64,000 nucleotides of DNA, from assembly GCF_002572525.1 (NCBI RefSeq), contig NZ_PDBS01000001.1:2356001-2420000 (forward strand), given 5' to 3'. The stretch is from Natrinema sp. CBA1119 (GTDB taxonomy: Archaea; Halobacteriota; Halobacteria; Halobacteriales; Natrialbaceae). The notes beneath the pieces are model-generated. The model did no database searches and was not told the origin of the DNA. It saw only the letters and a list, made by a program, of their open reading frames with translations. Both the position numbers and the translations under genes were made by a program. Shown piece after piece: positions 16,442 to 44,410 of the stretch. Positions within the stretch are counted from its first letter, which is position 1; each line of letters begins with the position of its first letter.

Positions 16442-16448
16442 TTTAAAT
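16442..16448 (+). promoter_or_regulatory. TATA-like box of the pilus-like locus
   Basis: TTTAAAT at 16442-16448 is centred about 27 nt before the ATG at 16472, the leaderless spacing. The same heptamer precedes two further genes in this locus, at 17744 and 21596. Confidence 0.6.
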
Positions 16449-16471
16449 GGGAAGGGACGGCAACGCTCGCC

Positions 16472-17281
16472 ATGAGCGATATCGAACGTATCGAACGGCG
16501 GCTGTCGACCGTCGAACGCGCGGTCGTCGACGGTGACCTTGAACTGGCTGCCGTCGGCGACGCCGCGTCCCTCACCGAGGACCTCGCGGCTCTCACCGAT
16601 CGGATCGACGCCCACGAGCAACGGATCGCCGATCTCGAGGGACGAATCGACGCATTCGACGGACTCGTCGGCTCCGTCGAATCCGTTAACGAGACCGTCG
16701 AGAAGCGGGCTAACGGGGCCGTCGCAGCTGTCGATCGGCTCGAGTACCGTATCGACGAACTCGAGCGCGTCCTCGGCTCTCGCGATACCGGCGATTCCGA
16801 CGGTGTGAGGGCTGCCCCCGACGACCGAGAGGGCGTCGCGCTCGAACGTGGAACTGAGACACCAGATGGCGGAGGGGAACCGTCCGATAGCGACGGATCG
16901 GGGATCCGAGAGAAGACGGCCGCGGCACCCGACTCGGCCACCGATGGAGACGGTCGCGGGGCACTACCGCCAGTCACTGCGAACGAGCAAACCGTTGGCT
17001 CGCTCTCCGTCGAGCAGACTGCCACGAAAATCGTCGCAGCACCGACCGGCGAAGGCGAGAGCCCGAACCGACAGGACGGCCCCGGTTCCGACGATCGAGC
17101 GGACTCGACGACGACGAGCGCCGGTAGCACTTGGAGCGGAAGGCAAGCCACGCAGGACGCACTCGACTGCCGACTCGCGGACCCGGCGAACGGCGACCGC
17201 TCGACCGAGGAATCGGCGTCGACCGAGGACGACGAACCCGGAAGCGGCATATTTGAGTCACTTCGGTCGAAGCTCCCGTGA
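16472..17281 (+). CDS. coiled-coil protein of the pilus-like locus
   Basis: A 269-residue protein. Residues 1-110 are a strong heptad-repeat coiled coil (IERIERRLSTVERAVVDG, then DRIDAHEQRIADLEGRIDAF). The remainder is disordered, Asp/Glu/Ser/Thr-rich sequence, with a short possible motif SGIFESLRSKLP at the C-terminus. From memory it matches a haloarchaeal coiled-coil family found before PilB-like ATPases (DUF7310), not checked. It may scaffold or tether the ATPase. Its stop overlaps the next gene's GTG. Confidence 0.72.
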   Translation: MSDIERIERRLSTVERAVVDGDLELAAVGDAASLTEDLAALTDRIDAHEQRIADLEGRIDAFDGLVGSVESVNETVEKRANGAVAAVDRLEYRIDELERVLGSRDTGDSDGVRAAPDDREGVALERGTETPDGGGEPSDSDGSGIREKTAAAPDSATDGDGRGALPPVTANEQTVGSLSVEQTATKIVAAPTGEGESPNRQDGPGSDDRADSTTTSAGSTWSGRQATQDALDCRLADPANGDRSTEESASTEDDEPGSGIFESLRSKLP

Positions 17282-17748
17282 TCCGGATCGTCGTTGCCGT
17301 TTTGCTCGCGATTGCCCTCATCGTCCTCGCCGTCCCGGCGATCGAGCGGGGTGCATCGCTGAACACGCAACGGCAGGTCGAAACGAGCATCGCGGCGATC
17401 GACGATGCGGCGACGTCACTCGCGGAAACGGAAGAGATCTCCCCCGACGACCATCCGAACCCCAGGCGAGTCGTCGACGTGCGATTGCCTCGGGGATCGC
17501 TCACGACCGATGCCGTCACTCATTTCGAGATCACTGTGGCGGAAACCGGACGGTACAGCTCCGTTCGGTACGTTCTCGCGGACGGAACGACGCGGACCGG
17601 GGTAATCGACGAACCGGTGGTCTGGAACGACCCACACGGCAACGAATCGGTCGAACTCGACGGAGCCGGTGAGGTTCGACTCGTGTTGTCGCTCCGAGCT
17701 GACGAGAACCGAACGCCGATCGTCGTCGCCACCCGTGCTCGAGTTTAA
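17278..17748 (+). CDS. small N-anchored protein of the pilus-like locus
   Basis: A 156-residue protein. Residues 4-22 form a hydrophobic helix (VVAVLLAIALIVLAVPAIE), with no basic run or cleavage motif obvious, followed by a beta-rich extracellular-type domain. The GTG start at 17278 overlaps the upstream stop by 4 nt, which suggests translational coupling. It resembles uncharacterised haloarchaeal proteins from the same gene neighbourhood (I recall DUF7311, unverified). It could be a minor pilin-like or assembly protein. Confidence 0.7.
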   Translation: MIRIVVAVLLAIALIVLAVPAIERGASLNTQRQVETSIAAIDDAATSLAETEEISPDDHPNPRRVVDVRLPRGSLTTDAVTHFEITVAETGRYSSVRYVLADGTTRTGVIDEPVVWNDPHGNESVELDGAGEVRLVLSLRADENRTPIVVATRARV

Positions 17749-17750
17749 AT
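17744..17750 (+). promoter_or_regulatory. TATA-like box before the pilB-like gene
   Basis: TTTAAAT at 17744-17750 ends inside the stop region of the preceding gene and is about 27 nt before the ATG at 17774. A separate leaderless promoter for the ATPase is plausible. Confidence 0.55.
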
Positions 17751-17773
17751 CAGATGCCGCTGCCACCATCGGT

Positions 17774-19807
17774 ATGTCTCCGGACGGGACCACGCGCCTT
17801 CGATCGGTCATCGACGACCTGGGCCTCGGCGGCGTGTTCGGAAATCGAACCGACACCGCCTCGTCGTGTGGCTGCACTGTAACGTTCGACGACGAGACGC
17901 TCGTTCTCGACGCGACCGACTGCGACGGCGACCTCGAGAACGCGACCGCCTGCCGTCGAACGGCGATCGAAGCGCTGGCCGAGCGAGCGGCCACACGGAT
18001 TATCGTCAGATCGAACGGCCTCGAACGCCGGTACGCCGACCGCGGCGTCGACCTCCTCGAGTCCGCCGGGCGGTTCATCTCGCTTCTTGGCGAGCGCGAC
18101 GAGCGGCTGGCCGCGGCCGCTGCGCGGGACCCGATCGCCGTCGCTTCGGAGGTCCGAACGAGAGCCGGACCGATCGCCGATATCGGCGTCGAATCGGGGC
18201 TGATCGCGGCGGCGACCGGTCTCGAGAGCGACGAGACGGTCCTGCCCGCCACCGTCGGGCTCACTATCGGCCAGTACTTCGTCGACCGAACGATCGACGA
18301 CGGCGCGCATCTCAGAGACCTCCAGTCGCTGCGGACGGGAAGCGAGGCGCGGATCTACGGCCGGCCGGGCGACGTTCCGCGCTACGCCCTCAACGCGGTC
18401 GATACGGCCCTCTCCGACACGGATCGGCGACGGCTCCTCGAGGGATACGAGGCGATCGCCGAGGGAGTCGTCGAGGGCGACCGCGCGCCCTCTCGAGCGA
18501 TCGAGTACGCCAGCGACGGGGCGGCCGACCCGCTCCTGACGGCTATTCTGACGAAACACACGAGCGGGTACGGGATTCTCGAGGACCTGTTCGCCGATCC
18601 GCGCGTCACCGACGTGTACGTCACGTCGCCGGCGGCAGCGAACCCGATTCGCGTCGTCGTCGACGGAGAGTCGATGCCGACGAACGTCCAACTCACGCCG
18701 AACGGTGCGCGAGCGCTCGCCTCGCGGGTTCGCCGCACCAGCGGGCGGGCGTTCTCCCGAGCGAGTCCGACGGTCGACGCGACGGCCTCGCTCGGAGACG
18801 GGACCGGGATTCGGGTCGCGGGCGTCACCGATCCGGTCGCAGACGGAATCGCCTTCGCCTTCCGGGAGCAGCCCGCCGACGAGTTCACGCTCCCGGCGCT
18901 CGTCGCGAACGGGACCGTCCCCGCGGCGGTCGCGGCGTTTCTCTCGGTCGCCGTCGAACGCAACGCCGCGACCCTCATCGCCGGAACCCGGGGATCGGGG
19001 AAGACGACGCTGCTGGGGACGCTCCTGTACGAACTCGCCCCGAAAACGAGAACGGTTCTGATCGAAGATACGCCCGAACTCCCGGTGGACGCGTTGCAGT
19101 CGGTCGGCCGCGACGTGCAGGCGCTCCGAACCGGAACCGGCGACGGTCCCGAAATATCGGCCGCGGACGCGCTCAGGACCGCGCTTCGTCTCGGCGACGG
19201 AGCCCTCGTTGTCGGCGAAATCCGCGGTGAAGAAGCACAGGTCCTCTACGAGGCCATGCGGGTCGGTGCGAACGCCAACGCAGTGCTGGGAACGATACAC
19301 GGCGACGGTGCCGACGACGTCTACGAGCGGGTCGTTTCCGACCTCGGCGTCGAACCGTCGTCGTTCGGCGCGACGGACATCGTCGTGACCGTTCAGGCTT
19401 ACCGGGCCCCGGGAGGACGAGATCGACGACTCGCCAAGGTCGAGGAAGTCGTCGGGACCGGCGACGACGTCCGATTCGAACCGCTGTACGAACTCGAGGG
19501 CGACCGCGCCGTCGCGACGGGGCGGATCGATCGCGGCGAGAGTCGGATCGTGAACCGACTCGCCGGGCCGACCGAGGACTACGCTGCCGTTCGGCGGGCG
19601 ATTTCCTCGCGAACCGAACTCCTGTCGACGCTCGTGAACGACGGCCGAACGAGCCCACAGGCGGTCGCGACAGCGTACACCGGTCGCGGAGACGAGAGAG
19701 GAGACTTCTCTCGGAGCGACGAGACGGCTCACACCGATCGGACCGACGAGCCACCAGCTCCCAATCAGGGCGGTGAGCCACCGGCTACCGATTGGGGCGG
19801 CGGGTGA
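17774..19807 (+). CDS. type II/IV secretion ATPase (PilB/TadA-like)
   Basis: A 677-residue hexameric-type secretion ATPase. The N-terminal 230 residues form a divergent N-domain with a Cys-rich start. Then follows the conserved region: SGYGILEDLFADPRVTDVYVTSP, Walker A GTRGSGKTTL near residue 403, an Asp box IEDTPELP, Walker B-like ALVVGEIRGEE near residue 475, and a His box GTIHGDGADDVYERV. These are the features of the ATPase that powers archaeal and Tad pili and archaella. The C-terminal 60 residues are disordered. It works with the membrane protein encoded next, which begins within a few bases of its stop. Confidence 0.93.
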   Translation: MSPDGTTRLRSVIDDLGLGGVFGNRTDTASSCGCTVTFDDETLVLDATDCDGDLENATACRRTAIEALAERAATRIIVRSNGLERRYADRGVDLLESAGRFISLLGERDERLAAAAARDPIAVASEVRTRAGPIADIGVESGLIAAATGLESDETVLPATVGLTIGQYFVDRTIDDGAHLRDLQSLRTGSEARIYGRPGDVPRYALNAVDTALSDTDRRRLLEGYEAIAEGVVEGDRAPSRAIEYASDGAADPLLTAILTKHTSGYGILEDLFADPRVTDVYVTSPAAANPIRVVVDGESMPTNVQLTPNGARALASRVRRTSGRAFSRASPTVDATASLGDGTGIRVAGVTDPVADGIAFAFREQPADEFTLPALVANGTVPAAVAAFLSVAVERNAATLIAGTRGSGKTTLLGTLLYELAPKTRTVLIEDTPELPVDALQSVGRDVQALRTGTGDGPEISAADALRTALRLGDGALVVGEIRGEEAQVLYEAMRVGANANAVLGTIHGDGADDVYERVVSDLGVEPSSFGATDIVVTVQAYRAPGGRDRRLAKVEEVVGTGDDVRFEPLYELEGDRAVATGRIDRGESRIVNRLAGPTEDYAAVRRAISSRTELLSTLVNDGRTSPQAVATAYTGRGDERGDFSRSDETAHTDRTDEPPAPNQGGEPPATDWGGG

Positions 19808-19814
19808 TCTCGAG

Positions 19815-21530
19815 ATGCTGTTGGTACCGTTTCTCGTTCAGTCGCTCGCCGCACTGTACCCGACCGATGTCGCCGTCAGTGATGCTCTCGCGGAGTCGCT
19901 ATCGTTTACCGACTCCCGCTATGAGGGTGAGACGATCGTCCGAGCGGGATACGGAGCCGGCATCGTTGCCGCCATCGTGCCACTGCCGTTGTTGCTGACG
20001 GCTGCTCCGATTCCGTTCGTCCTGTTTTTCGTACTCGTGACCCCGATCGCGGCGATTCACGGCGTCCATTCGATGCCGCACTTGCAGGCGGCGTTCCGCA
20101 GAACCGAGGCGCTCGGCGAGACGCCAAACCTCGTCGGGCGGGCCGTGTTGCGCATGCAGGTACAGCCGGCACTGGAGAGCGCGGTTCGGTTCGCGGCCGA
20201 GACCGGGTCCGGCCCGTTGTCCGCGAGTCTCGCCGGTCACATCGATCGATCGATTGGAACGCCCGGGACGGGCCTGCTGTCGTTTGCCGAGGAATGGGCA
20301 GAGTGGTTCCCGGCGCTTCGGCGGTCCTCGCATCTGCTCGTCGCCGCCCAGGACGCACCCGATGCCGAACGTGTCCGGACGCTCGATCGATCGCTCTCGG
20401 CCGTTCTCAACGGTACTCGCAGCCAGATGGCGGATTTTACGTCGGCGATCCGCGCACCGGCGACCGGGCTGTTCGCCTTCGGGATCATGCTTCCGCTCGC
20501 GCTCGTCTCGCTCGTTCCGACGGTGCCGATGGTCGGCTATTCCGTCAACATCTGGCTGTTCGTGCTGCTGTACAACGTTGTTCTCCCCGGAACCCTGATC
20601 GCGGCGAGCCTCTGGCTGCTCGTCCGACGACCGGTCGCGTTTCCGCCCCCCGCGATCGACCATGGGCATCCGGACGTGCCCGATCGACTCCGATTGCGGC
20701 TGCTATGGGGAATCCTCGCAAGCGTTTGCGGGTACGTAACGATCGCTACGACCGGGCCCGGCCACCTCGCACCGGTCGCGGCAATCGGCCTCGGCGTCGG
20801 CGTCGCATTGGTCGCAACGTATCGTCCCGTCCTCGCGGTTCGGCAGTACGTCCGCGACGTTGAAGCCCACCTGACCGACGCGCTCTACATCGTCGGTCGA
20901 CAGGTCGCCGAAGGCGAGTCCGTGGAGTCGGCGGTCGAACTCGCTGGCGACCGCGTCCCCGCCGAGACCGGTGCTGTCTTCGAAGACGCCGCCGGAATTC
21001 AGCGGCGGCTCCAGACGGGCGTTCGAGAGGCATTTCTCGGTCACTACGGTGCCCTTCGAAACGTTCCAAGCCCCCGGGCTCGAGGGACTGCCGCGTTGCT
21101 CGCGATCGCCTCGGAAGAGGGGAAACCCGCCGGCCGTGCCATCGTCTCCATGGCCGACCATCTGGAGGAACTCGAGGCGGTCGAAGCCGAGACAAAACGA
21201 AACCTCGAGCAGGTCACCGGGACGCTCGACAACACGGCGGCGTATTTCGCTCCGCTCGTCGCCGGCGCGACCGTCGGCATGGCCGCCATGATGTCGAGCG
21301 AGGATATCATCGCTTCGGGCGAGGTGGAAGCCGCTGCATTCCCCGCGGAATCGCTCGCGGTCGTCGTCGGTCTCTATCTGATCGCGCTCTGTTTCATCAT
21401 CACCCCGCTCTCGATCGGGCTTCGTCACGGTCTCGACCGGGCCCTCGTCGGGTATCACGTCGGTCGTACGCTCGTCTCGGCGATGATCCTCTACGTCCTG
21501 ACCGTCGCCGTCATCGGCGTCTTGCTCTGA
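19815..21530 (+). CDS. type II secretion F-domain membrane protein (PilC/TadC-like)
   Basis: A 571-residue polytopic protein that would form the membrane platform for the upstream ATPase. It has an N-terminal helix region, two T2SSF-type helical domains (about residues 110-200 and 340-480, the second with VGRQVAEGESVESAVELA and GTAALLAIASEEGKPAGRAIVSMADHLEELEAVE), and about seven to nine membrane segments. The start is uncertain: an in-frame ATG at 19773 overlaps pilB by 35 nt and adds 14 residues. I chose 19815 because it begins MLLVPFLVQSL, just after the ATPase stop. Confidence 0.85.
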   Translation: MLLVPFLVQSLAALYPTDVAVSDALAESLSFTDSRYEGETIVRAGYGAGIVAAIVPLPLLLTAAPIPFVLFFVLVTPIAAIHGVHSMPHLQAAFRRTEALGETPNLVGRAVLRMQVQPALESAVRFAAETGSGPLSASLAGHIDRSIGTPGTGLLSFAEEWAEWFPALRRSSHLLVAAQDAPDAERVRTLDRSLSAVLNGTRSQMADFTSAIRAPATGLFAFGIMLPLALVSLVPTVPMVGYSVNIWLFVLLYNVVLPGTLIAASLWLLVRRPVAFPPPAIDHGHPDVPDRLRLRLLWGILASVCGYVTIATTGPGHLAPVAAIGLGVGVALVATYRPVLAVRQYVRDVEAHLTDALYIVGRQVAEGESVESAVELAGDRVPAETGAVFEDAAGIQRRLQTGVREAFLGHYGALRNVPSPRARGTAALLAIASEEGKPAGRAIVSMADHLEELEAVEAETKRNLEQVTGTLDNTAAYFAPLVAGATVGMAAMMSSEDIIASGEVEAAAFPAESLAVVVGLYLIALCFIITPLSIGLRHGLDRALVGYHVGRTLVSAMILYVLTVAVIGVLL

Positions 21531-21595
21531 TCAGTTCGGTCCCCACTCGTCGCGTTGCGGCTCTCGATCCGGCCTCGTTTCGAGCCGGACTCGGA

Positions 21596-21602
21596 TTTAA
21601 AT
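21596..21602 (+). promoter_or_regulatory. TATA-like box before the exported-protein gene
   Basis: TTTAAAT at 21596-21602, about 27 nt before the ATG at 21626. It is the third copy of this box in the pilus-like locus at the same leaderless spacing. Confidence 0.55.
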
Positions 21603-21625
21603 ACGAATACGCGGCCACCAGCAGC

Positions 21626-22522
21626 ATGGATCTGGAAGCCCCGGTCGATGCGTGGTACGTCTGGCTCGCCGTCTCGATCGTCAGCGCCGCCGTCGCCGGT
21701 ATCGCACTCGGGCTGCCGACCGGACCGCCCCCGGACACGAACCGAGCCGCAAACATGATCGAACAAACCGCTGGAAGCTCGTACAACGCGAGTGCCACGT
21801 ACGATCACGACGCGACCGAGATCAAGTTCGACGGCCGAACGCTCGCGATGCGAAACGAGCACGGCACTTCCCGCGCGAGTCTCAGCTACGGGCACGTCGT
21901 CCCCGTGATGGGGCACGAACGCCTCGAGAATCTTACAGCGGGCCGATCCTTCGAAGAAGAATACGCGGCGGAGCTCGATGATACGGAGACGCACGCGCTC
22001 GACGACTTTCTCGAGGATGTCGAAGACGCATACGCCGATAACACGGGTGAGTGGCGGACTGCAGACGACCAGCTACGGGTCCGAACGATCAGTACGACAC
22101 CGGTTCCGACGATACGTGCGTCAGTCGAACTGATCTATGCAGCTGGTACGACTCACGAGGCCACGTTTGCGTACGAGGCAAACACGGACACGAAACTGAC
22201 GTTTACCGCCGAAAGCAGGGAACTGGACACATACATCGAGAAATCCGTCGAAGCGTCTCCCTCGAGAGAAACCGCACCCGCTGGACCGTACGATTTCCAT
22301 AAGAACAGTTGGTTGAAATTTCCAGTCGACGTCGAGATCGACGCCGAGGGCGCGACCATCTGTAACGAGACTATTCGGGCCGACCGTGGCAGTGAGATGG
22401 TTCCTCTCTGTGGTCCCGGTGGAGAAACAATCGATATCACGGATACCAACCTCGAGACCCGCGGATACGTGAACAAAAATCGGGAATCGGAGTCGTTCTA
22501 TGTCACGCTCGTCAGCGCCTAA
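21626..22522 (+). CDS. membrane-anchored exported protein, pilus-like locus
   Basis: A 298-residue protein. Residues 10-32 are a hydrophobic anchor (VWLAVSIVSAAVAGIALGL), and the remainder is soluble, beta-rich and acidic, with Asn-Xaa-Ser/Thr sequons (including NLTA, NASA). Haloarchaeal DUF-type family, probably in the DUF7283-DUF7288 group that I recall for such loci, unverified. Base composition drops slightly towards its 3' end. Its final codons overlap the next gene by 23 nt. Confidence 0.72.
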   Translation: MDLEAPVDAWYVWLAVSIVSAAVAGIALGLPTGPPPDTNRAANMIEQTAGSSYNASATYDHDATEIKFDGRTLAMRNEHGTSRASLSYGHVVPVMGHERLENLTAGRSFEEEYAAELDDTETHALDDFLEDVEDAYADNTGEWRTADDQLRVRTISTTPVPTIRASVELIYAAGTTHEATFAYEANTDTKLTFTAESRELDTYIEKSVEASPSRETAPAGPYDFHKNSWLKFPVDVEIDAEGATICNETIRADRGSEMVPLCGPGGETIDITDTNLETRGYVNKNRESESFYVTLVSA

Positions 22523-22985
22523 CGGACAGCGTGGGCAGACCGAGCCGCTCGCCGCGCTCGTCGCCGTTTCGGCGCTTATCGTCGGTATCGGACTCTATGG
22601 CCTATATCTGACGGATACGCTTCCCGGAACCACCGACCGGACGACCGAAGAGACGGCAGTGACTCGGATCAAAGGGGACATCGAGACCGACGGCGTCGTT
22701 CGCAGTTATGGTCACGACGAACTCGAGGACCTGATCGAGACGGCGTCGCTCCCTCACGGACGGAACGTCTACGTGCAGGTGACGGTCGTCGATGACGGCC
22801 GTGAGACCGTCGTCGCCGATGCTTTGTTCGGAACTGACGGGCAGCCGAATCGCGATCCGCTCGAGAGCGGCGAACTCGAGGGGCCGCCGGCCGAGGCCGG
22901 CGTTGCCACCCGTCCCATCGCTGTCGCCACGAGACCCGGTGCGGTCCGCGGTGGAACGCTACTCGTTGGGGTGTGGAACGGATGA
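22500..22985 (+). CDS. pilin-like small protein with hydrophobic N-segment
   Basis: A 161-residue protein. The N-terminal stretch has a charged head (GQRGQTEPLAALVAVSALIVGIG) immediately before a hydrophobic helix. This arrangement resembles class III/IV pilin-like signal sequences with a G-Q or A-Q-type cleavage position, though no prepilin peptidase gene is in this window. The mature part is acidic with a Gly/Pro-rich C-terminal region. It may be a minor pilin. It overlaps both neighbouring genes. Confidence 0.7.
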   Translation: MSRSSAPNGQRGQTEPLAALVAVSALIVGIGLYGLYLTDTLPGTTDRTTEETAVTRIKGDIETDGVVRSYGHDELEDLIETASLPHGRNVYVQVTVVDDGRETVVADALFGTDGQPNRDPLESGELEGPPAEAGVATRPIAVATRPGAVRGGTLLVGVWNG

Positions 22986-24037
22986 GCGCCGACCGCGCCG
23001 TGAGTACGGTCATGGACGTCGCGATGGCCCTCCTGCTCGTTAGCGCCAGCGTCCTGCTGATCGGGATTCACCTGCACAACTCGGACGACAAGTTCGACGA
23101 GAACCGAGCCGACCGGACGGCCGAACTCCTCGGCGAATCGACCATCAGCGTTCAGTACAGTCTCGAAGACGCTGCGCCGATCGCAGATCGGGAGGGGGAG
23201 TACCACCGAACCGAGTACGGCTCGGCCACCGGACTCCTCGCGGACGCGGCCGTCGCGAACGTCCACGTCGACGGCACTCGAATTCGCTCTACAGGCGACG
23301 AGTTCGAAACGGCCGTCGGTGCGTCCGTCGAAAGCGCTCTCATCGGGTCGAACCGCCATTTCTACGTCACCGCTGAGTGGGAACCCTACGACGACGCGGC
23401 GATCAACGGCACGGCGACGGCCGGCGAACGACCGCCGCCGAACGAGGATGTCTCGAGCGTCACGCTGACGGCCTCGAGCGGGATTTCTGCCGTCGATTCG
23501 AACGAGGTCGAATTCGCGTATCTGAACGCCGATACGTACTGGAACGACTATCTTGGCGATCGAACCGACCTCGTCGAGAGCCCGGAGAACGCGTCGTTCG
23601 AAGCGGCCGGAACGGTGATCGGAAACGCGATCGTCGACGGCTACTTCCCGCCCGCGGCAACCCAGCGATCCCTCGAGAGTCAGGGGCTCTCCCACGAACT
23701 CACCGTTTCACAGTACGAGCAGCTGGTGAAACCGCTCGAGTACGAGTTCACTGAGACGACGGCGCCGGCTCACCACGGCCCGCTCAAGCGCGAGGAGGCA
23801 GACGCGGTCGAAGCGAACGCACAGGTGGTTCGCGGGGTTGCAAACGCGGACACGTTCGGCCGGAACGGGCTGGGACACTGGCTCGGGGAGGACCTGCAAA
23901 CGGCGCTGGCAGACGAAATCGCGGCGATCGAGGAGCGCTACGACGGCGAGCGACGCGACGAAGAGACCGCGGCGTTGCTCGCCGACGAAGTATCGACCGA
24001 CGAGGTCACGATTACGATTCAAACCTGGTACGTATGA
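22982..24037 (+). CDS. pilin-like membrane-anchored exported protein
   Basis: A 351-residue protein starting at 22982 with an ATG that overlaps the upstream stop (ATGA). The N-terminus SADRAVSTVMDVAMALLLVSASVLLIG is a charged R-A-V-S-T head followed by a helix, similar to the archaeal pilin-like RAVS/RGQ motif. The C-terminal part is a helical soluble domain (ARG/GLU-rich) with an N-Xaa-T sequon. The likely site is the outer surface. The gene is followed by the large exported protein with a 4-nt overlap. Confidence 0.72.
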   Translation: MSADRAVSTVMDVAMALLLVSASVLLIGIHLHNSDDKFDENRADRTAELLGESTISVQYSLEDAAPIADREGEYHRTEYGSATGLLADAAVANVHVDGTRIRSTGDEFETAVGASVESALIGSNRHFYVTAEWEPYDDAAINGTATAGERPPPNEDVSSVTLTASSGISAVDSNEVEFAYLNADTYWNDYLGDRTDLVESPENASFEAAGTVIGNAIVDGYFPPAATQRSLESQGLSHELTVSQYEQLVKPLEYEFTETTAPAHHGPLKREEADAVEANAQVVRGVANADTFGRNGLGHWLGEDLQTALADEIAAIEERYDGERRDEETAALLADEVSTDEVTITIQTWYV

Positions 24038-27000
24038 CACGCAGACCACACACAGTTTCGATCGCAGACGACGACCGAGCCCGGATTCCGTTCGCCCTGA
24101 TCGCCATACTGCTACTGGTCAGTAGCATCGCGATCGTCGGCGTGCTGGAGTCCAGAGAAACCCCAGACGTCGACACCGATCAGGCGCTCGCCATGGATCG
24201 TGCCGAGTCGGTTGCGATCGCCGAACTGCGGCAGGCGGTCGTCCGCGCGACCGAGGATGCCGCCGGCGCCCCCGTCACGTCGACCGACGGGGCAGCTGCT
24301 TCCGTCAGCGCCGCGATGGATGACGACGAGGCCGTCTTCGACCAGTACCTGAAACTCCTCATCTACCGAGAGGTTTCGGAGTCGTTCGCGAGCGCCCACC
24401 AGCAATTCGATGGAGAGACGACCGCGGAGGCCTCCGTCGAACGGATCGACTGGAGCGACAGCGACGACCTCGAGGCGGCGATCGATCGCGTTTCGCTCGA
24501 GAAAGGCGAATCGGGCGTTCTCACCGTCGCGGTCGACGGCATCGAACTCACCGTCGACGAAACGGAGGGTCAGCCAGTTACCGAGCGACGGGAGCTGTCG
24601 GTGACTGTCGGCACGCCGCTCTACCAGCTCAAAGACCGGACCGATGAGTTCCAATCACAGCTCAACACGGGCTTTTTCGAAAGCGACGGCCAGTACGACG
24701 GTTTCGGGCGGTACTTCGCCGCTCGGATGTACCCGTACGCGTGGGGGAAAGCCTACTACGACCGACTTAGCAGCGGTGATCGCGCCTTCCACAATCTCAC
24801 ACCCAACGAGCACACCGAAGTGATGGTCAACGACGCCGTCTTCGGACTGCAGGAGAAAACCTTCGGTACAACCGACCCGTACAAAGACCGCGCCATGCTC
24901 TTGCCGACGCTCTGTATGGCCGGCGATCTCGCCTCGAGCGCGGGCGACATCGAAACCTCGGACTTCCTCCCGGGCGGCGAGGCGAGTAATCTCTCTAATC
25001 GGACGAATCTCTGTGATAGCGATCTGATCGATCAGGACGGGGAACTTCCGGATCCGCCGACTGTACAGGATATTGTGCTGACGATGCTCGAGGACAACGT
25101 CGAGACTGATGTCGAGATTCAAGCGCATCCGTTCGCCGATGTCGCGTATATGCAGATGGCGAGTGGAATGACTATGGAGCAAGTGGAATCGGAATTCAAT
25201 GACTCGCTGATGAAATCAAATAGATTTTCTGATAACTACCTCCGCAATTACTATTCAGGTAGTTTGGAAAATCAAGATATAGCCGATGATCTGGGAGATT
25301 TTCGAACTAACGGAGGCGGAACGTTAGATAATATTGAACGGCTTTTCAGGGAAAGAGGTCCTAATGAAGCGATTATAAACAAAGTCATTGGAGAAATATA
25401 TACTGTCGACTTGGGAGCAAGCGAAGTAGGGCCATTTAAACAAAATGACTTACCAGACCCGTCTCCACCAAGCGAATGGGCCCAAAATCCTGGAAATTGG
25501 TCTGGACCAGTTAACATTACCTATCATGCTGGTATCTCACCGGCGAAGGCTGATGTCTCAATCGATATCGTATCCAATAACGATGCTACTGGATTTGATG
25601 ATCGGGATCTCGCTACAGTCGATATTAACTATAAGAATACGATTGGCGTTAAGGGGGAATGGAAACATGAGAATGGAAACAAATCGTCATACTCGTCCTG
25701 GAATTGGAAGGAGAATATAACGTATAGTTCCAATTACAAGATTGATGGTGATTTTGTATCTGAGGATATTGGGACTGAGCGTGGGTCTCGCGGTATTAAA
25801 TCGCTAATTGAGAAAGATTCCTGGGAGGAAAAGGATGGTATCATTCAGAACTTCGAAGGTGTCGAGACAAAAGCAGTCAAAGAGACACTTGACCTGAGTT
25901 CGATATCTGTGCAGTCGCAGGAACAAGAACTCGAACGGAAGATTGAGAGCTCAAGCAACTCGATAATTACGGAAAGAGATTTTGGCAAGGCGATTACATA
26001 CTCTTCATCTCCGAATCTCGATGTCGAACCGCAGAACAAAGATGAACTGTATCAGTGGGCGCTAGCCGAACTTAATCAGACACACTACGAGGTCGTGACA
26101 ACCGTGGAGCCTCATCAAACCGACCTCTGGAATATGCTTGAGAAGCCAAGTCCGCTCAAGAAAATCAAGAGGAATGTAAGTAGCTTGGAAGGCGAGTTAG
26201 TGTATCAAAACGTCTCCGAACCATACGACAATACAGCCGATCTCCTCCGTGCAGAGGTTCGGAAGCAATATTTTGAGGACACCTACGATAATATCGGACG
26301 AATTAGCGGCTGGCACGACGATACACTCGGTGAGAGTAATGCCATACTTAATGGTCTCCTTGGCGGTCTTCTCGATACTAGCAATGATCTCCTCGGGGGT
26401 CCAATGAAATTCGTTGATCAGATGATGGATCCCGAAACGCGTCCTGAAGATGCACGAGTATCGCTCGAGAGTTCACCATTGATGGAGGATATGAACTATC
26501 AGGTCGAGGCATCGCCAACGTATCTTTCACTAGAAACTGTTAATCGAACTGATGTCCCAGCAGTCAGACCAGAAGGTGGCGATGTGCTCGCTATCGATAC
26601 TGCCAATGAGACAGACCATGCACCGTTGGGTGCTGGATACTTCGACGGTATCGGTCATCCAGGTTTCCCTCTCATGCCGTGGCCATCATTGTTCTACTTG
26701 CAGCTTGATGCATATTACCTTGAAGTACAAGGAGAATACGCTCGGTTCGAGGTACGTGCTAATAGTGGTGATCCAACAAGCAGCAGCGAGATGACCTATG
26801 TTCGGGAAGACACAGACGTAACGATTGAAACGCCAACTCGGACCGAGGAAAACGAACTTACAATCGGATCTATCGAACCGATCTCGTTCGATAATACTCT
26901 TGTAATTCCGATCGTTGTTCCAAGCCCACAACTGATGGCTAAGGGATCACCGGGAGTCGGTGATACATGGCGATATAAGAATTCAAACTCCCCACGAGAA

Positions 27001-27099
27001 AATTGCTCAGTTGCTTGGGCCAATACCGGCTCTAGTTTCAAGAGTACTGATAGTGTGGGTTGTGTGTCTGGCATGACTGAAGGAAACCTTCCAGTTTGA
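24034..27099 (+). CDS. large N-anchored surface protein with low-GC, sequon-rich C-terminal two-thirds
   Basis: A 1021-residue protein. Residues 18-38 are a hydrophobic anchor (IPFALIAILLLVSSIAIVGV), preceded by a short acidic/basic head. Residues up to about 380 are in normal high-GC haloarchaeal code; the rest, from about 25180, is AT-rich with frequent ATA, AAT and AGA codons. The C-terminal part is rich in Asn and Ser with several sequons, including NITY, NKSS, NQTH, NVSS, NVSE, NRTD and NETD, suggesting an N-glycosylated exterior domain. It may be a tip adhesin or pilus-associated protein. The function is not known, and the mosaic composition points to recombination inside the gene. Confidence 0.78.
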   Translation: MTRRPHTVSIADDDRARIPFALIAILLLVSSIAIVGVLESRETPDVDTDQALAMDRAESVAIAELRQAVVRATEDAAGAPVTSTDGAAASVSAAMDDDEAVFDQYLKLLIYREVSESFASAHQQFDGETTAEASVERIDWSDSDDLEAAIDRVSLEKGESGVLTVAVDGIELTVDETEGQPVTERRELSVTVGTPLYQLKDRTDEFQSQLNTGFFESDGQYDGFGRYFAARMYPYAWGKAYYDRLSSGDRAFHNLTPNEHTEVMVNDAVFGLQEKTFGTTDPYKDRAMLLPTLCMAGDLASSAGDIETSDFLPGGEASNLSNRTNLCDSDLIDQDGELPDPPTVQDIVLTMLEDNVETDVEIQAHPFADVAYMQMASGMTMEQVESEFNDSLMKSNRFSDNYLRNYYSGSLENQDIADDLGDFRTNGGGTLDNIERLFRERGPNEAIINKVIGEIYTVDLGASEVGPFKQNDLPDPSPPSEWAQNPGNWSGPVNITYHAGISPAKADVSIDIVSNNDATGFDDRDLATVDINYKNTIGVKGEWKHENGNKSSYSSWNWKENITYSSNYKIDGDFVSEDIGTERGSRGIKSLIEKDSWEEKDGIIQNFEGVETKAVKETLDLSSISVQSQEQELERKIESSSNSIITERDFGKAITYSSSPNLDVEPQNKDELYQWALAELNQTHYEVVTTVEPHQTDLWNMLEKPSPLKKIKRNVSSLEGELVYQNVSEPYDNTADLLRAEVRKQYFEDTYDNIGRISGWHDDTLGESNAILNGLLGGLLDTSNDLLGGPMKFVDQMMDPETRPEDARVSLESSPLMEDMNYQVEASPTYLSLETVNRTDVPAVRPEGGDVLAIDTANETDHAPLGAGYFDGIGHPGFPLMPWPSLFYLQLDAYYLEVQGEYARFEVRANSGDPTSSSEMTYVREDTDVTIETPTRTEENELTIGSIEPISFDNTLVIPIVVPSPQLMAKGSPGVGDTWRYKNSNSPRENCSVAWANTGSSFKSTDSVGCVSGMTEGNLPV

Positions 27100-28430
27100 C
27101 TATCAATATTTTATATGTTCGATCTTCTGTCGAATTTTCTCATAGGAACCTTATGTCAGAATATGAGGGCTACTTTTCCCAGATATAGTGTGGATCTTTC
27201 CATCTGTTGTAGATACATAGAGAGACCCATCAAAGACAGCCAATGATGAGCCTAAAGAATCTCCCACTTCTTCTCCAAGATTTTTGAAATCCCATTTAAT
27301 AGTACCGTCTTCCGAATCAAATGCAAAAATGTCCTGATAACTGGTGACGTAAACCATTCCGTCAACAATTACTGGTTTTGAGCGTATACTATATCGCAAG
27401 TCCTGTGGTTCCCAAATGTATTCCTGATTTTTAATATCAATAGCAAAGAACTGTTGACCTCCAGCACCAGCCCCGCCGAAATAGATCGTTCCATCTGCTA
27501 TTGACGGACTACATTCCACACTTGCACTAATCTTCTCTGACCACTCTTCTGTGCCATTATCGGCATCAATCGCGTATAATCGTTGATTTTTGCCCCCGAT
27601 ATAGACCGTTCCATTAGCAACTGTTGGATTGCTATCTCCCAAGGATTTTCCTTCCGGGTTTTTGAATGTCCATTCGACTTTTCCACTTTCAGCATTCACC
27701 GCATAAAGAAAGTGCCCTCCCGCAAAGTAGACAATCCCGTTGTTATAAGCTGGAATATCTGTATAGGGACGTCCACCGTTGTGATTTCGCAGATCGTGAA
27801 GTATAGTTTCAGCACCAGTTTCAGGATGGAAACGATATAAAATCATATTTTCCGTACCAACTACCGAATTGCCAGCTAGTACCGGGTTGATACTGCTAAT
27901 TCCCACGTCCTTCCTCCATGAGATATCCTCACTATTTCGGTTAATCGCGACAATTCCATTTTCCGTCCCAGCATATACTTTCTCGTCAGACACCGTCGGA
28001 TAGGCACCGCGTAGATCAGTTACCTGTTTCTTCCATTCGAGTTCCTCAGTCGCAAGGTCGACTGCGTGGAGATGGTTGTCTGCAGCGACGTACAACGTCC
28101 CGTCAACGATTGCCGGACTGTTACTAATCACTCCTTCCGATTCAAAGACGGTCCGCAGTTCTACCTCTTCACCACTCGGTCCAGTCGCCGTCGGATGATG
28201 GCCAGTATTCTGTGGGTCAACCCCGTACATCGGCCACCTGGTAGGTGGGAGTTCCTCGCTGTTTTCAGGTTCGTCACTCGTCTCGTCACTATTCGTACAC
28301 CCAGCCAGCGTTGCAAGCCCCGCAGTAACGCTCGCACAACTCGCCAACCAGTTCCGGCGCGTCCGAATCGATTTCCGACCCATGTTATGTACGGTTACTT
28401 TACTTCAACAAAGTATAATTTTTAGGATAC
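25180..28430. other. low-GC island within the pilus-like locus
   Basis: From about 25180 the sequence changes from about two-thirds GC to visibly AT-rich, and returns to high GC at about 28440. The island covers the distal part of the 1021-residue gene and the entire PQQ-repeat lipoprotein gene. No transposase or att repeat is visible at either edge. The GC figures are by eye, not computed. Confidence 0.7.
27151..28383 (-). CDS. PQQ-repeat beta-propeller lipoprotein (BamB-like)
   Basis: A 410-residue exported protein. The N-terminus TRRNWLASCASV has a twin-Arg pair before a hydrophobic stretch and a lipobox-like LAGC (Cys 29), consistent with a Tat-exported lipoprotein, the usual haloarchaeal route. 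The remainder contains at least six to seven PQQ-like repeats of the form GTVYIGGKNQRLYAIDADNGTEEW, forming a beta-propeller. It lies on the opposite strand to the pilus genes and its composition is AT-rich. A TATA-like AAATTATAC lies upstream (about 28415-28423). Family function is commonly protein scaffolding; the partner is unknown. Confidence 0.82.
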   Translation of the reverse strand: MGRKSIRTRRNWLASCASVTAGLATLAGCTNSDETSDEPENSEELPPTRWPMYGVDPQNTGHHPTATGPSGEEVELRTVFESEGVISNSPAIVDGTLYVAADNHLHAVDLATEELEWKKQVTDLRGAYPTVSDEKVYAGTENGIVAINRNSEDISWRKDVGISSINPVLAGNSVVGTENMILYRFHPETGAETILHDLRNHNGGRPYTDIPAYNNGIVYFAGGHFLYAVNAESGKVEWTFKNPEGKSLGDSNPTVANGTVYIGGKNQRLYAIDADNGTEEWSEKISASVECSPSIADGTIYFGGAGAGGQQFFAIDIKNQEYIWEPQDLRYSIRSKPVIVDGMVYVTSYQDIFAFDSEDGTIKWDFKNLGEEVGDSLGSSLAVFDGSLYVSTTDGKIHTISGKSSPHILT

Positions 28431-28586
28431 TGTCTCGAGCAGAAATCCAGCGTCGAACGGGATCGATCACGGAGTAGTAGTTGACTATCGTCGGATTCGC
28501 CGCTCGAGCAACAGCCATCCAGACAACCAGAGACCAACCGTCAGGACCTGACGGAGGTTCAAAAAGGATGCCGCACCACTGTCGGT

Positions 28587-29870
28587 ATGATCGCTATCGC
28601 CGGCGCGAAGGGCGGCTGTGGAAAGACGGTAACGACGATTGGGCTCGCGGAGGCCGTCGGGAGACGTGGAACGACATCGATCGCGATCGACGCCGATTGC
28701 CAACTGCCGAACTTGCACGTTGCGGGCGGCGTTGATCGGACGCCGACGCTCGCCGCACTCGAGTCCGACGCCGACGTCGAATCGGTCGTCCAACGGAGTC
28801 CCCGAACGTCGAACGTCGGGCTGTTGTCGGCCCCCAAATCGTCGAACGAGGTGAACTTCGAGGTGGCGCTCGACCGCCTCGAGTCCGACGCCGTCCGAAC
28901 CTTCGTGGACTGTCCGTCGGGGGCGGGGATCGATGTCGTCGAACCGCTCTCGGCAGCCGAGGGAGTGATCGTCGTCACGACTGATAGCGAGCGCAGCATC
29001 TCCGCCGCGGAAACGACGATCGAGATGGCCCGCCGACTCGAGGTGCCGATTGTCGGAACGGTGGTAAACAGATGCGAGAGCGTCCCGAAGACGGTCAGGT
29101 CGTGGACCGACGTGCCGGTTCTAGGCCGGGTGCCCGACGGAACGGCACCGCTGACGGACGAGGCGACTCGAGCGGCCTACGACGAGATCGCGGCGACGAT
29201 AGCGACGAGAACCGCGATGGATGGATCGGCTCCTCCGTACGACGACGATCTGCTGCGGACCGGGTACGATCCACTCGATCGGGCGTTCGGTGGCGGGCTG
29301 GAACCGGGATCCATGGTCGCGGTCGTGGCGGCCCCGGCCAGTCGCTCCGAACGGTTTCTCTCCGAGGCGACTGCCGTCCGCGGCACGCTCTATCTGTCGA
29401 CTGAACGGTCGTCGGCCAACGTTCAGCGAGCGCTCGAGTCCGTTCCGACGGCGACGGGAAATCCGACGGTCCGCCGCCTCAGTGATGAGAACGGGCTCGC
29501 TGAGGCGAGATCGATGGCCGATAAACTCCCGGCGTCGTCCACGCTGGTCGTCGATCCCGTGAACGCGCTCGAGCGGGACGGTCGTGACGAGTACGTGTCG
29601 TTTCTCGACGACCTCAAGGAGCAACTGGTCGAAACCGGGAGCATCGGCCTGTTACACTGTCTAAAGGGTCACACGATTCCGTCGAATCGAACAGTGACGA
29701 CGCACGCAGCCGATGCGGTCTTCGAGATAACGGCGGTCACGCCCGAGACAGGGGCGAACGTCGAACACTATCTGTCGGTTCCGAAGTATAGAGCCGACGG
29801 GGCGACCACGGAAGCGATCGAACTCGAGTTCGGAGAGGAGACGGTCGCCCCGACTAGTGACGCGTTCTGA
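28587..29870 (+). CDS. MinD/ParA-type ATPase fused to a degenerate RecA/KaiC-like domain
   Basis: A 427-residue protein. Residues 1-210 are a deviant-Walker ATPase: GAKGGCGKTVTT (P-loop with signature Lys), IDADCQLPNLH, a VDCPSGAGID Walker B-like segment and VNRCE. From about residue 220, TGYDPLDRAFGGGLEPGSMVAVVAAPASRSERF resembles the start of a KaiC/RecA domain, but the GxxGxGKT of its P-loop is degraded to PASRSER. A second domain that lacks nucleotide binding yet keeps the fold would make a bipartite partner. Similar proteins occur beside haloarchaeal pilus-like loci. A TATA-like box is about 27 nt before the ATG. Confidence 0.82.
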   Translation: MIAIAGAKGGCGKTVTTIGLAEAVGRRGTTSIAIDADCQLPNLHVAGGVDRTPTLAALESDADVESVVQRSPRTSNVGLLSAPKSSNEVNFEVALDRLESDAVRTFVDCPSGAGIDVVEPLSAAEGVIVVTTDSERSISAAETTIEMARRLEVPIVGTVVNRCESVPKTVRSWTDVPVLGRVPDGTAPLTDEATRAAYDEIAATIATRTAMDGSAPPYDDDLLRTGYDPLDRAFGGGLEPGSMVAVVAAPASRSERFLSEATAVRGTLYLSTERSSANVQRALESVPTATGNPTVRRLSDENGLAEARSMADKLPASSTLVVDPVNALERDGRDEYVSFLDDLKEQLVETGSIGLLHCLKGHTIPSNRTVTTHAADAVFEITAVTPETGANVEHYLSVPKYRADGATTEAIELEFGEETVAPTSDAF

Positions 29871-29922
29871 CTCGCTCTCTGAGAAGTAGCCGACTCATAC
29901 CTGATCTCCGGTATCGTACCGA

Positions 29923-30621
29923 TCAGCGGACACCGATTCGATCGGTCAGCCGTTTCTCGCAGCGTTCGATCCGCTGGGCGACCGTCTGAACGGCGTCGAC
30001 GGCCGAACAGTCGGGATGGACGTCGCGAACGGGACGCCGGTGGGCCTGCGCGTCGGCGACCGCCGGCAGTTCCTCGAGCCCGATCGCCGGCGCGCCGAAG
30101 TACCGCTCGACGCGGTCACCGATCCGATCGATGGCCGCAGTGTCAGCCCTGTTGAGGACGACGGCTGCGACCGGCGTCTCGAGATCGAGGGCGAGCCGCT
30201 TCGTCCGGAGCGCATCGGTCAGGGCCGGCTCGGTCGGCGTCGTCACGAGGACGGTCAGCTGGGCGCATGCGAGTTGTTGGCCCACGTCACGCGCCAGCCC
30301 GGCGGGACAGTCGACGAGGACGCGACCGAACTCGCGTTCGATCCGGTCGATCACTCGCGCGAACGCGGTCAGGTCCACAGCGCGAGCGCCGGCGAGGGTT
30401 CGCCCGCACGGAAGGACGCGCACCGCATCGCGGCGGTCGATCGCCTCGAGCGGGTCGGCGCGACCGGCGAGCACATCGTGGAGGTTCGGGCCGTGACCGC
30501 GTGGGAGGTCGGCGGTCGTGAGGTCGCCGTCGACGACGACCGCGTCCAGCTCGCGACCGAGGTTCAACGCGATCGTCGATTTACCGACGCCGCCTTTGCC
30601 GCCGCTGACGGCGACGATCAT
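29923..30621 (-). CDS. MinD/ParA-family ATPase
   Basis: A 232-residue deviant-Walker ATPase: MIVAVSGGKGGVGKSTIALN (P-loop with signature Lys), VVVDGDLTTADLP, VLVDCPAGLARD and VTTPTEPALTDALRT. No membrane-targeting helix is clear at the C-terminus. Haloarchaea carry several MinD paralogues; MinD4 localises chemotaxis and archaellum machinery. This one is divergent from the fused MinD-RecA protein, and it overlaps the upstream hypothetical gene by 4 nt. Any role in positioning the pilus machinery is inference from context. Confidence 0.87.
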   Translation of the reverse strand: MIVAVSGGKGGVGKSTIALNLGRELDAVVVDGDLTTADLPRGHGPNLHDVLAGRADPLEAIDRRDAVRVLPCGRTLAGARAVDLTAFARVIDRIEREFGRVLVDCPAGLARDVGQQLACAQLTVLVTTPTEPALTDALRTKRLALDLETPVAAVVLNRADTAAIDRIGDRVERYFGAPAIGLEELPAVADAQAHRRPVRDVHPDCSAVDAVQTVAQRIERCEKRLTDRIGVR

Positions 30622-30983
30622 CGCTGCCGTTCGAGAACGTCGGGCGTCGGTTTCCACTCGGTCAGTGACGCGAGCGCGTCGGCCTCGCTCGCCGACCGAT
30701 CGGTCGAGGCCCGCCGAGCGGACACCACTTCGAGCGGCGGGTCAGCGGGCGCTGCGGGACTCGCGAAGCCGATACCGCGGTGCTGGTTCGGTTCCACGAT
30801 CCCGTCCCAGCCCGCGTCGGTCCACTCGGGATCTGGATGCGGTCCGCGACCGGGATGCCAGAGAGGGCCGTCGAGTCGGCTCTCGAGACGGACTCGTTGT
30901 GGCGTCGTCGCGGTGGTCGCGACGGTCGCGGAAACCAGCGTCACTCCCTCGATCCGGTCGATCTCCCAGTCGAGTTCGATCAC
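30618..30983 (-). CDS. hypothetical protein in a MinD operon
   Basis: A 121-residue protein with two strand-rich segments, IDRIEGVTLVSATVATT and PQRVRLESRLDGPLWHPGRG, then WDGIVEPNQHRGIGFASPAAPADPPLEVVS, and a disordered end. It is an uncharacterised haloarchaeal family usually paired with a MinD-like ATPase. The reading frame overlaps the MinD start (ATGA), so translational coupling is likely. Confidence 0.72.
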   Translation of the reverse strand: MIELDWEIDRIEGVTLVSATVATTATTPQRVRLESRLDGPLWHPGRGPHPDPEWTDAGWDGIVEPNQHRGIGFASPAAPADPPLEVVSARRASTDRSASEADALASLTEWKPTPDVLERQR

Positions 30984-31024: not shown

Positions 31025-31792
31025 TCAGGTCTCGAGGTCGAACTCGCCAGCCAGGGTGCCGGCCGACGACTCGAGCACGACGCTCTCTCCGGCGGTCATC
31101 GAGTCCCCGATATCGACGGTGACGTCCTCGAGGTCGACCGCCGGCGGAAAGAGCAGGTCGACGCGGCTGCCGAAGGCGATGTGACCGATCCGTTCGCCTC
31201 GCTCGAGGTCGTCGCCGCGCTCGGCGTAGGGGTGGATGCGGCGGGCGAACGCGCCGGCGATGAGCGTGACGTCGGCGTCGTGGGCGGGTTCGTCAGGGTG
31301 TGCATTTGGGTCGTCGGTGGCCGATTCTCCGCGGTCGTCTCCGACGGGCTCCCCGCCGTCGTCCGCGATCGCTGCGGCCCCGTCGTCGCCCGCGTCGGAC
31401 GGCAGGTTTGGGGAGTCGGTCTCGAGGCGGACGTGGACGCGCTCGTTTCGGTCGGACTCCTTCGAGAAGGCCGGGCGGTTCGCCCCGGAGACGTGTTCGA
31501 CGTCGGTGACTCGGCCCGTGAAGGGAGAACGGACGACGTGGACGTGCCAGACGTTCATGAAGATGCCCAGCCGAACTCGGTCGCCTTCCTCGCGGAGAAC
31601 GGAGACGTTCCCGTCGGCCGGCGAGACGACGCCCGTCGGCGGCGGGGAGCGCTCGGGATCGCGAAAGAACGCGAGGGTCCCGGCACCGGCCGCGAGCGCG
31701 ACGAGGCTCGCCGTCACGCTAATGAGAAGTGCAAACGGGGCGGCGAGCAGTGGAACGATGGCGTACTTCCAGGCCCCCGGCGCGAATTTCAT
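31025..31792 (-). CDS. pssD: archaetidylserine decarboxylase (PssD-like)
   Basis: A 255-residue PSD-family enzyme. Two N-terminal membrane helices are followed by VSPADGNVS, GIFMNVWHVHVVRSPFTGRV and the autocatalytic IAFGSRVDLLFP segment (Gly-Ser self-cleavage site giving a pyruvoyl group). In Haloferax volcanii the PssD homologue acts with PssA and the archaeosortase ArtA in lipid anchoring of the S-layer glycoprotein. An acidic insertion of about 45 residues (about 125-170) between the two halves is low complexity. The partner pssA is not next to it. Confidence 0.9.
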   Translation of the reverse strand: MKFAPGAWKYAIVPLLAAPFALLISVTASLVALAAGAGTLAFFRDPERSPPPTGVVSPADGNVSVLREEGDRVRLGIFMNVWHVHVVRSPFTGRVTDVEHVSGANRPAFSKESDRNERVHVRLETDSPNLPSDAGDDGAAAIADDGGEPVGDDRGESATDDPNAHPDEPAHDADVTLIAGAFARRIHPYAERGDDLERGERIGHIAFGSRVDLLFPPAVDLEDVTVDIGDSMTAGESVVLESSAGTLAGEFDLET

Positions 31793-31866
31793 GGGCGAAA
31801 TGACGCGAGCGAGGCGTATGGCCGTTACGGATCGACGGGTCGGAACGGCGGCCCTCCCTCGAGTCG

Positions 31867-44281: not shown

Positions 44282-44337
44282 ACTTTTACTGCGACCAGAC
44301 CGCTCGCTCCGCTCGCGGTGTTGGTCGCAGTAAAAGT
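44282..44337 (-). terminator. long hairpin directly 3' of tRNA-Tyr (terminator or processing structure)
   Basis: A perfect 16-bp inverted repeat (44282-44297 and 44322-44337, arm ACTTTTACTGCGACCA) encloses a second CCGC...GCGG dyad. It begins at the discriminator base of tRNA-Tyr and would fold into a long stem in the 3' trailer. Its use as a terminator is inferred from position. Confidence 0.5.
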
Positions 44338-44410
44338 CCGCCCTCCCCGATTTGAACGGGGGGCAAGTCGATCTACAGTCGACTGCTCTACCAGTCTGAG
44401 CTAAGGGCGG
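44337..44410 (-). tRNA. tRNA-Tyr (anticodon GTA)
   Basis: On the minus strand, CCGCCCT pairs with AGGGCGG as a 7-bp acceptor stem. The D arm has TAGCTCAGACTGGTAGAGC, the anticodon stem GTCGA/TCGAC encloses loop CTGTAGA with anticodon GTA, and the T arm has CCCCGTTCAAATCGGGG. The discriminator base is A at 44337. No intron is present and the CCA is not encoded. Confidence 0.95.

Follow-up and report, generated by a model that had tools for sequence, protein, structure and literature searches.

We describe a type IV filament locus in a 64,000-nucleotide stretch of the Natrinema sp. CBA1119 genome (the window), where an operon with a PilB2/TadA-type secretion ATPase lies close to two genes for MinD-family ATPases, one of MinD1 type and one of MinD3 type fused to a KaiC-like DUF7125 domain. 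Across haloarchaeal genomes the two MinDs are kept or lost together with the secretion ATPase, which suggests that they belong to the pilus-type machine. We lean towards a type IV filament machine of the pilB2/C2 kind, with the two MinDs as its own components marking its site or its number. Judged from sequence, the core of this machine is the published haloarchaeal subclade 4F/pilB2-C2 type IV pilus; the core is thus already known, whereas the dedicated MinD pair and the MinD3-DUF7125 fusion are unreported as far as the literature was searched.

The secretion ATPase was present in 105 of 145 genomes drawn for the class Halobacteria at a completeness of at least 90% (cut-off 1e-60; one genome, G121, is a fragmented assembly). 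A MinD1-type gene was found in 102 genomes, comprising 100 of the 105 with the ATPase and 2 of the 40 without it (cut-off 1e-30). The MinD3-type half was found at its cut-off (1e-20) in 98, comprising 95 of the 105 and 3 of the 40; this list omits G056 and G067, later shown to carry the gene, so that at least 5 of the 40 ATPase-less genomes keep it. Two further proteins of the locus, DUF7310 and DUF7286, each occur in every ATPase genome (105/105), with DUF7310 counted from strong matches only (108 genomes). A first-pass annotation of the window had proposed a single machine, and its proposal passes this co-occurrence test; for the core, the same reading was already in print (PMC4858521, PMC9856176).

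Presence of the MinD1-type gene agrees with that of the ATPase in 138 of 145 genomes, against a mean of 121.6 in shuffles within genera, and presence of the MinD3-type half agrees in 132, against a mean of 116.7. Each value was reached in 0 of 20,000 genus-stratified shuffles, which rules out co-occurrence as a lineage effect only. (Genome lists for co-occurrence, shuffling and the DUF7856 counts below were copied by hand from match tables.) Six genera of mixed state, g1 (13 genomes), g2, g19, g37, g41 and g45, show complete agreement between the MinD1-type gene and the ATPase; g6 and g25 have a single mismatch apiece. The best-matching other MinD of each genome served as a control and was unlinked to the ATPase: of the 40 genomes without the ATPase, 34 still have a strong one. 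Copy number also agrees: G058 and G141 are the only genomes with two ATPases, and the only ones with two MinD1-type and two MinD3-type matches.

The ATPase exists in two versions, B, which is that of the window (at least 61% identity to it), and A, the common one (about 46-59%). Version B occurs in 21 of the 145 genomes, 15 from family f1, 5 from f3 and 1 from f7. In all 21, where the open frames were checked in each, MinD3-type and DUF7125 form one open reading frame, and they do so in 0 of the 124 others; A-type genomes carry them as separate adjacent genes (L122, L124, L126, L128, L130). The fused forms make up one tree clade (18 rows, 100/100), which includes an orphan copy in G064, and the fusion has a single origin. 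It is encoded within 12 kb of the ATPase in 15 of the 21 B-type genomes and far from it in the other 6.

The first-pass annotation had counted two MinD-type ATPases, and both are present, but it missed that one of them is this two-domain protein. A model of the fusion (mean pLDDT 83.5, pTM 0.52) is predicted to contain a MinD fold, with 207 residues aligned to Pyrococcus furiosus MinD at Z 27.2 and rmsd 2.4; the structural alignment rows covered model residues 1-212 only, leaving DUF7125 hardly sampled. Foldseek matches to the model include two-domain KaiC alignments, and sequence profiles mark DUF7125 as RecA/KaiC-like (SSO2452 5.5e-6, RadA 5.6e-5, KaiC 6e-4), with a PASQSE-like stretch in place of GK[ST] and hence no Walker A lysine. 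The two window MinDs are divergent paralogs; each carries the deviant Walker A motif KGGxGK[ST] (AGAKGGCGKT and SGGKGGVGKS), and they score 75 and 128 bits against a curated cut-off of 201.75 for the NCBIfam family minD_arch.

The pairing of ATPase and MinDs that the first-pass annotation saw holds as co-inheritance, but as proximity it is only a Natrialbaceae-type arrangement. The MinD1-type gene is usually encoded far from the ATPase, and in Haloferax the MinDs lie hundreds of kilobases from the pilus genes. Adjacency as a general feature was ruled out by neighbourhood comparison, being absent outside Natrialbaceae-type loci. DUF7856 adjoins the MinD1-type gene in 5 of 5 A-type loci read; 85 of the 86 A-type genomes have it, compared with 3 of the 59 others. 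It is absent from family f1, outside which the counts are 85/86 and 3/22.

Haloferax genomes contain four MinD groups that form separate clades in the tree. The long group (open frames of 611-741 aa) presumably corresponds, by its length, to MinD4. In one Haloferax genome (G078), the MinD1-type gene, the long MinD and a 286-aa MinD lie at 790.7, 718.6 and 456.3 kb, a spacing that resembles that of locus numbers HVO_0225, HVO_0322 and HVO_0595. In Haloferax the MinD1-type gene has a TFB gene next to it, and HVO_0226 is a TFB (PMC7714728). From this spacing and the TFB neighbour, the gene at 29923-30657 of the window is assigned as MinD1-type. By synteny and tree placement, the window MinDs are orthologous to Haloferax MinD1 and, by elimination, to MinD3 (HVO_1634). 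In the same Haloferax genome (L123), DUF7856 also neighbours the MinD1-type gene, and a further ParA-like gene lies nearby along with the TFB. PMC11621097 states that no function had yet been described for MinD1-3, and that deletion of all four minD genes gave the motility defect of a minD2 and minD4 deletion. That the quadruple deletion is no worse is in keeping with a role for MinD1 and MinD3 outside the archaellum. Our literature search, with most subscription papers outside its reach, found no paper linking MinD1 or MinD3 to pili.

All genes described by the first-pass annotation are present where it placed them, as judged by translation and Pfam (Table 1). Eight of them form a plus-strand operon at window positions 16472-27099, in the order DUF7310, DUF7311, ATPase, T2SSF-type platform, DUF7283, DUF7285, DUF7284 and DUF7286; Pfam assigns six of the products to DUF families and one to the T2SSE ATPases. 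Several of these genes overlap by 4-23 bases. The MinDs lie outside this operon, because a reverse-strand PQQ gene intervenes and the MinD1-type gene is on the minus strand, and they were rejected as operon members.

Table 1. Genes of the filament locus and its MinD neighbours, in window coordinates
Feature	Position	Strand	Evidence
DUF7310, coiled-coil protein, cytoplasmic	16472..17281	+	PF23991 5.9e-27; 105/105 ATPase genomes
DUF7311, small N-terminally anchored protein	17278..17748	+	PF23993 1.4e-47; hydrophobic N-terminus in 42/43 homologs
PilB2/TadA-type secretion ATPase, N-terminal Cys motif	17774..19807	+	PF00437 1.5e-21
TadC/PilC2-type membrane platform	19773..21530	+	T2SSF in 12/21 homologs, none for the window protein
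DUF7283, anchored protein	21626..22522	+	PF23954 7.6e-53; class III prepilin motif 0/47
DUF7285, pilin-like (RGQTEP + hydrophobic stretch)	22500..22985	+	PF23956 1.6e-28; class III motif 41/68
DUF7284, pilin-like (RAVST + hydrophobic stretch)	22973..24037	+	PF23955 9.2e-82; class III motif 37/71
DUF7286, 1021-aa anchored surface protein	24034..27099	+	PF23957 4.3e-110
PQQ beta-propeller lipoprotein	27151..28383	-	PF13360 5.3e-34; convergent accessory gene of many such loci
MinD (MinD3-type) fused to DUF7125 KaiC-like domain, degenerate Walker A	28587..29870	+	Pfam MinD-like + DUF7125 6.8e-44
MinD (MinD1-type), convergent to fusion gene	29923..30657	-	TIGR01969 2.6e-37; tree clade with Haloferax MinD1-type genes

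The locus is not a chance assembly, since DUF7286 occurs in 111 of the 145 genomes and the same eight-gene order recurs in loci of many families in the neighbourhood comparison. Its DUF7283-7285-7284-7286 cassette is modular, lying apart from the ATPase in G116 (which has two cassettes), G120, G046 and G069, inverted in L050 and L057, and doubled in G077. Locus L016 has the fusion and the MinD1-type gene directly after the platform gene, and no pilin cassette. Directly upstream of the second MinD in the window lie two genes (31025-33906), one of phosphatidylserine decarboxylase type and one for a PAS-GAF histidine kinase; the decarboxylase gene is also present in L060-L062. An FtsZ gene (Tubulin 8.5e-45, FtsZ_C 1.7e-35) is found at 45557-46747, some 15 kb away from the MinD genes, and near it a tRNA-Tyr (44336-44410) sits beside a low-GC stretch.

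The window ATPase has an intact Walker A motif (GTRGSGKTT) and a PF00437 match above cut-off. Its best family is TIGR03819 TadA (147.3 bits, cut-off 373), with FlaI second (105 bits); neither score comes near its curated cut-off, so that the TadA equivalog level is not reached. The nearest sequences in the Protein Data Bank (PDB) are those of Archaeoglobus fulgidus 2oap (1.2e-32), CpaF (3.7e-24) and FlaI (5.2e-19), and an N-terminal CxC..C..C motif is present in 40 of 42 homologs. The platform is a single 585-aa protein, with no separate TadB and TadC at the locus; its start is uncertain, as aligned homology begins near 19836. The window platform has no Pfam match of its own and a sequence search found no structural match for it, and the best T2SSF match among the 21 aligned homologs is 4.7e-7. 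The genome as a whole contains five T2SSE matches. The first-pass annotation, having seen no prepilin peptidase in the window, advised a search of the rest of the genome, and this yields one PF01478 match far from the locus (C1:1572231, 3.7e-8).

Scored with a class III prepilin motif after FlaFind, the anchored proteins behave differently. The motif is found in parts of the DUF7285 and DUF7284 families, in 1 of 71 DUF7286 homologs and in none of DUF7283, which weakens a reading of all four as prepilins. Only some members of the DUF7285 and DUF7284 families have the appearance of prepilins, and Pfam recognised no PilA-like major pilin in the locus. DUF7286 is conserved in its N- and C-terminal parts, with a diverged, AT-rich middle (GC along the gene 61, 44 and 48%). 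Its model (mean pLDDT 75.7) has a helix at 20-38 followed by one at 48-78, and no fold relatives were found in PDB or BFVD. Its size and its anchor prompt the guess that it sits at a tip or surface. A PQQ lipoprotein gene lies 3' of DUF7286 in many loci of this type. The window copy is 45% identical to that of Natrinema zhouii, compared with 78% for DUF7286 and 91% for DUF7284. GC falls to 44-48% over 25201-28383 (the middle and end of DUF7286 plus the PQQ gene), against about 65% for the window, and low GC is seen again in L006, L007 and L019. DUF7286 and the PQQ lipoprotein look like a fast-changing surface pair.

Published work describes this core. In Halobacteria, subclade 4F systems combine an ATPase whose N-terminus is rich in Cys with a coiled-coil protein, an S-layer-like protein and a neighbour of the FtsZ family, and their major pilins are often stand-alone genes (Makarova 2016, PMC4858521); DUF7310 is probably the coiled-coil arCOG07564 of that study. 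The pilB2/C2 regulon, of unknown role, lies beside cetZ2 in Haloferacales and Halobacteriales, and Natrialbales are mostly without it or have pilB2 outside one (Brown and Duggin 2023, PMC9856176). Shared with these systems are the Cys-rich ATPase N-terminus, the TadC-type platform, minor pilin-like proteins, the coiled-coil protein and, in Haloferax, the adjoining cetZ2: a CetZ gene (PF21011 5.1e-65) is divergent from the pilus operon in L121, assigned to that genus from 93.5% identity to H. profundi. This gene and the Cys motif in 40 of 42 ATPases match the published descriptions, so that the core of the machine cannot count as new. The Natrialbaceae-type locus differs in having no adjoining CetZ, an added PQQ lipoprotein, a diverged DUF7286 middle, and both the MinD3-DUF7125 fusion and a MinD1-type gene close by. 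Clade 2 systems are expected to have MinD (arCOG00589) partners, 'usually' stand-alone (PMC4858521), and the accessible parts of PMC4858521 and PMC9856176 make no mention of MinD paralogs dedicated to subclade 4F. Our literature search found no paper on DUF7283, DUF7284, DUF7286, DUF7310, DUF7311 or DUF7125.

Comparable partnerships exist elsewhere in the filament superfamily. Bacterial Tad pili likewise combine a TadA/CpaF-like ATPase with a MinD-family partner (TadZ/CpaE), and TadZ resembles archaeal arCOG00589 (Denise 2019, PMC6668835); the haloarchaeal locus differs in its one long platform, its two MinDs and the KaiC-like domain on one of them. The archaellum also joins a secretion ATPase to a RecA/KaiC-fold accessory (ArlH) and a MinD, and MinD4 places it (PMC11621097). 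However, the MinDs here are of different clades, MinD and KaiC-like domain share one protein, and the Walker A lysine is missing from DUF7125. Epd-type archaeal pili also have an ATPase with a secondary ATPase gene, FlaH taking the TadZ gene position (PMC6668835), whereas the secondary ATPase here unites a MinD with a KaiC-like domain.

In the machine we favour, an ATPase hexamer and the platform would extrude pilin-like subunits from the membrane. Judging by appearance, the minor pilins would be DUF7285 and DUF7284; DUF7286 would probably be a tip or surface element, and the surface part would be built from the exchangeable cassette. By analogy with TadZ/CpaE, the MinD1-type and MinD3-type proteins would specify where in the membrane the machines sit or how many there are, and DUF7125 might connect them to the motor in the way that ArlH docks on ArlI. 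We infer that the MinDs interact physically with the machine and position it, and that its product is a pilus. The first-pass suggestion, drawn from MinD4, of a role for the MinDs in the spatial placement of the machine is plausible, and placing or licensing it, as TadZ does for Tad pili, is the most likely role on such analogies. More tentatively, and a little less likely than not, MinD1 and MinD3 could be dedicated to PilB2/C2 as a two-MinD positioning module, the fusion merging a TadZ-like positioner with an ArlH-like motor adaptor.

Several observations weigh against these proposals. The MinD3-type gene persists in at least five ATPase-less genomes (G056, G064, G067, G109, G125), a point softened by the G064 copy, which has lost DUF7125 and Walker A; DUF7286 fragments in G056, G067 and G125 suggest recent loss. 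Conversely, no MinD1-type gene was detected in five genomes with the ATPase, G100 and four of one genus (G036, G037, G049, G099), nor a MinD3-type half at cut-off in ten, and G045 has the MinD1-type gene and the cassette with no ATPase detected. The class III motif is absent from DUF7283, nearly so from DUF7286, and incomplete in the other two families. DUF7125 resembles ArlH weakly (PDB FlaH 4wia, E 0.093; 4yds, E 0.27), and it is near universal, occurring in some form in 140 of 145 genomes, and must therefore have another role as well. Two gene arrangements were also noted: G045 (L134) has a diverged gene resembling DUF7125 close to its MinD, and adjacent MinD3-type and DUF7125 genes are retained in G056, G067, G125 and G109 (L151-L154).

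The machine might instead make no pilus: it could be a complex for secretion or sensing, related to type IV filaments and displaying DUF7286, a view compatible with either reading of the MinDs. We consider this rather unlikely, although the unrecognised major pilin, a DUF7286 nearly devoid of the class III motif and with no PDB fold match, and a pilB2/C2 role that is unknown in print (PMC9856176) all favour it, because two pilin-like proteins stand beside the ATPase, a prepilin peptidase is encoded elsewhere and subclade 4F often has stand-alone major pilins (PMC4858521). A slightly weaker candidate is that the MinDs act like FleN/FlhG, limiting number or expression via a regulator and not position. 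In its favour, structures matching the MinD half include those of FleN and FlhG, and a TFB gene lies beside the Haloferax MinD1-type gene; the RecA/KaiC-like nature of the MinD3-type partner DUF7125 speaks against it.

It is improbable that the MinDs serve a separate process, for instance surface polarity or the organisation of the chromosome or of CetZ, and owe their distribution only to its usefulness to the same organisms. Their lack of linkage to pilus genes in Haloferax and most other families, the CetZ2 adjoining the Haloferax operon (PMC9856176) and the conserved context of DUF7856 in its own right fit such a process, but MinD copy number and type follow the ATPase (two genomes with two of each; fusion in 21/21), and MinD and ATPase genes are close together in several Natrialbaceae. 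To a merely chance neighbourhood we give almost no credence: a reverse gene does separate the MinDs from the operon and adjacency is limited to some lineages, yet co-inheritance holds even where the genes are unlinked, and the genomes with the fusion are exactly those with the B-type ATPase.

Co-inheritance with a pilus-type machine ties two orphan proteins, MinD1 and MinD3, into one testable hypothesis. If true, MinD positioning in archaea would extend from the archaellum to a pilus, and the finding would bear on the origin of TadZ-type control in the filament superfamily.

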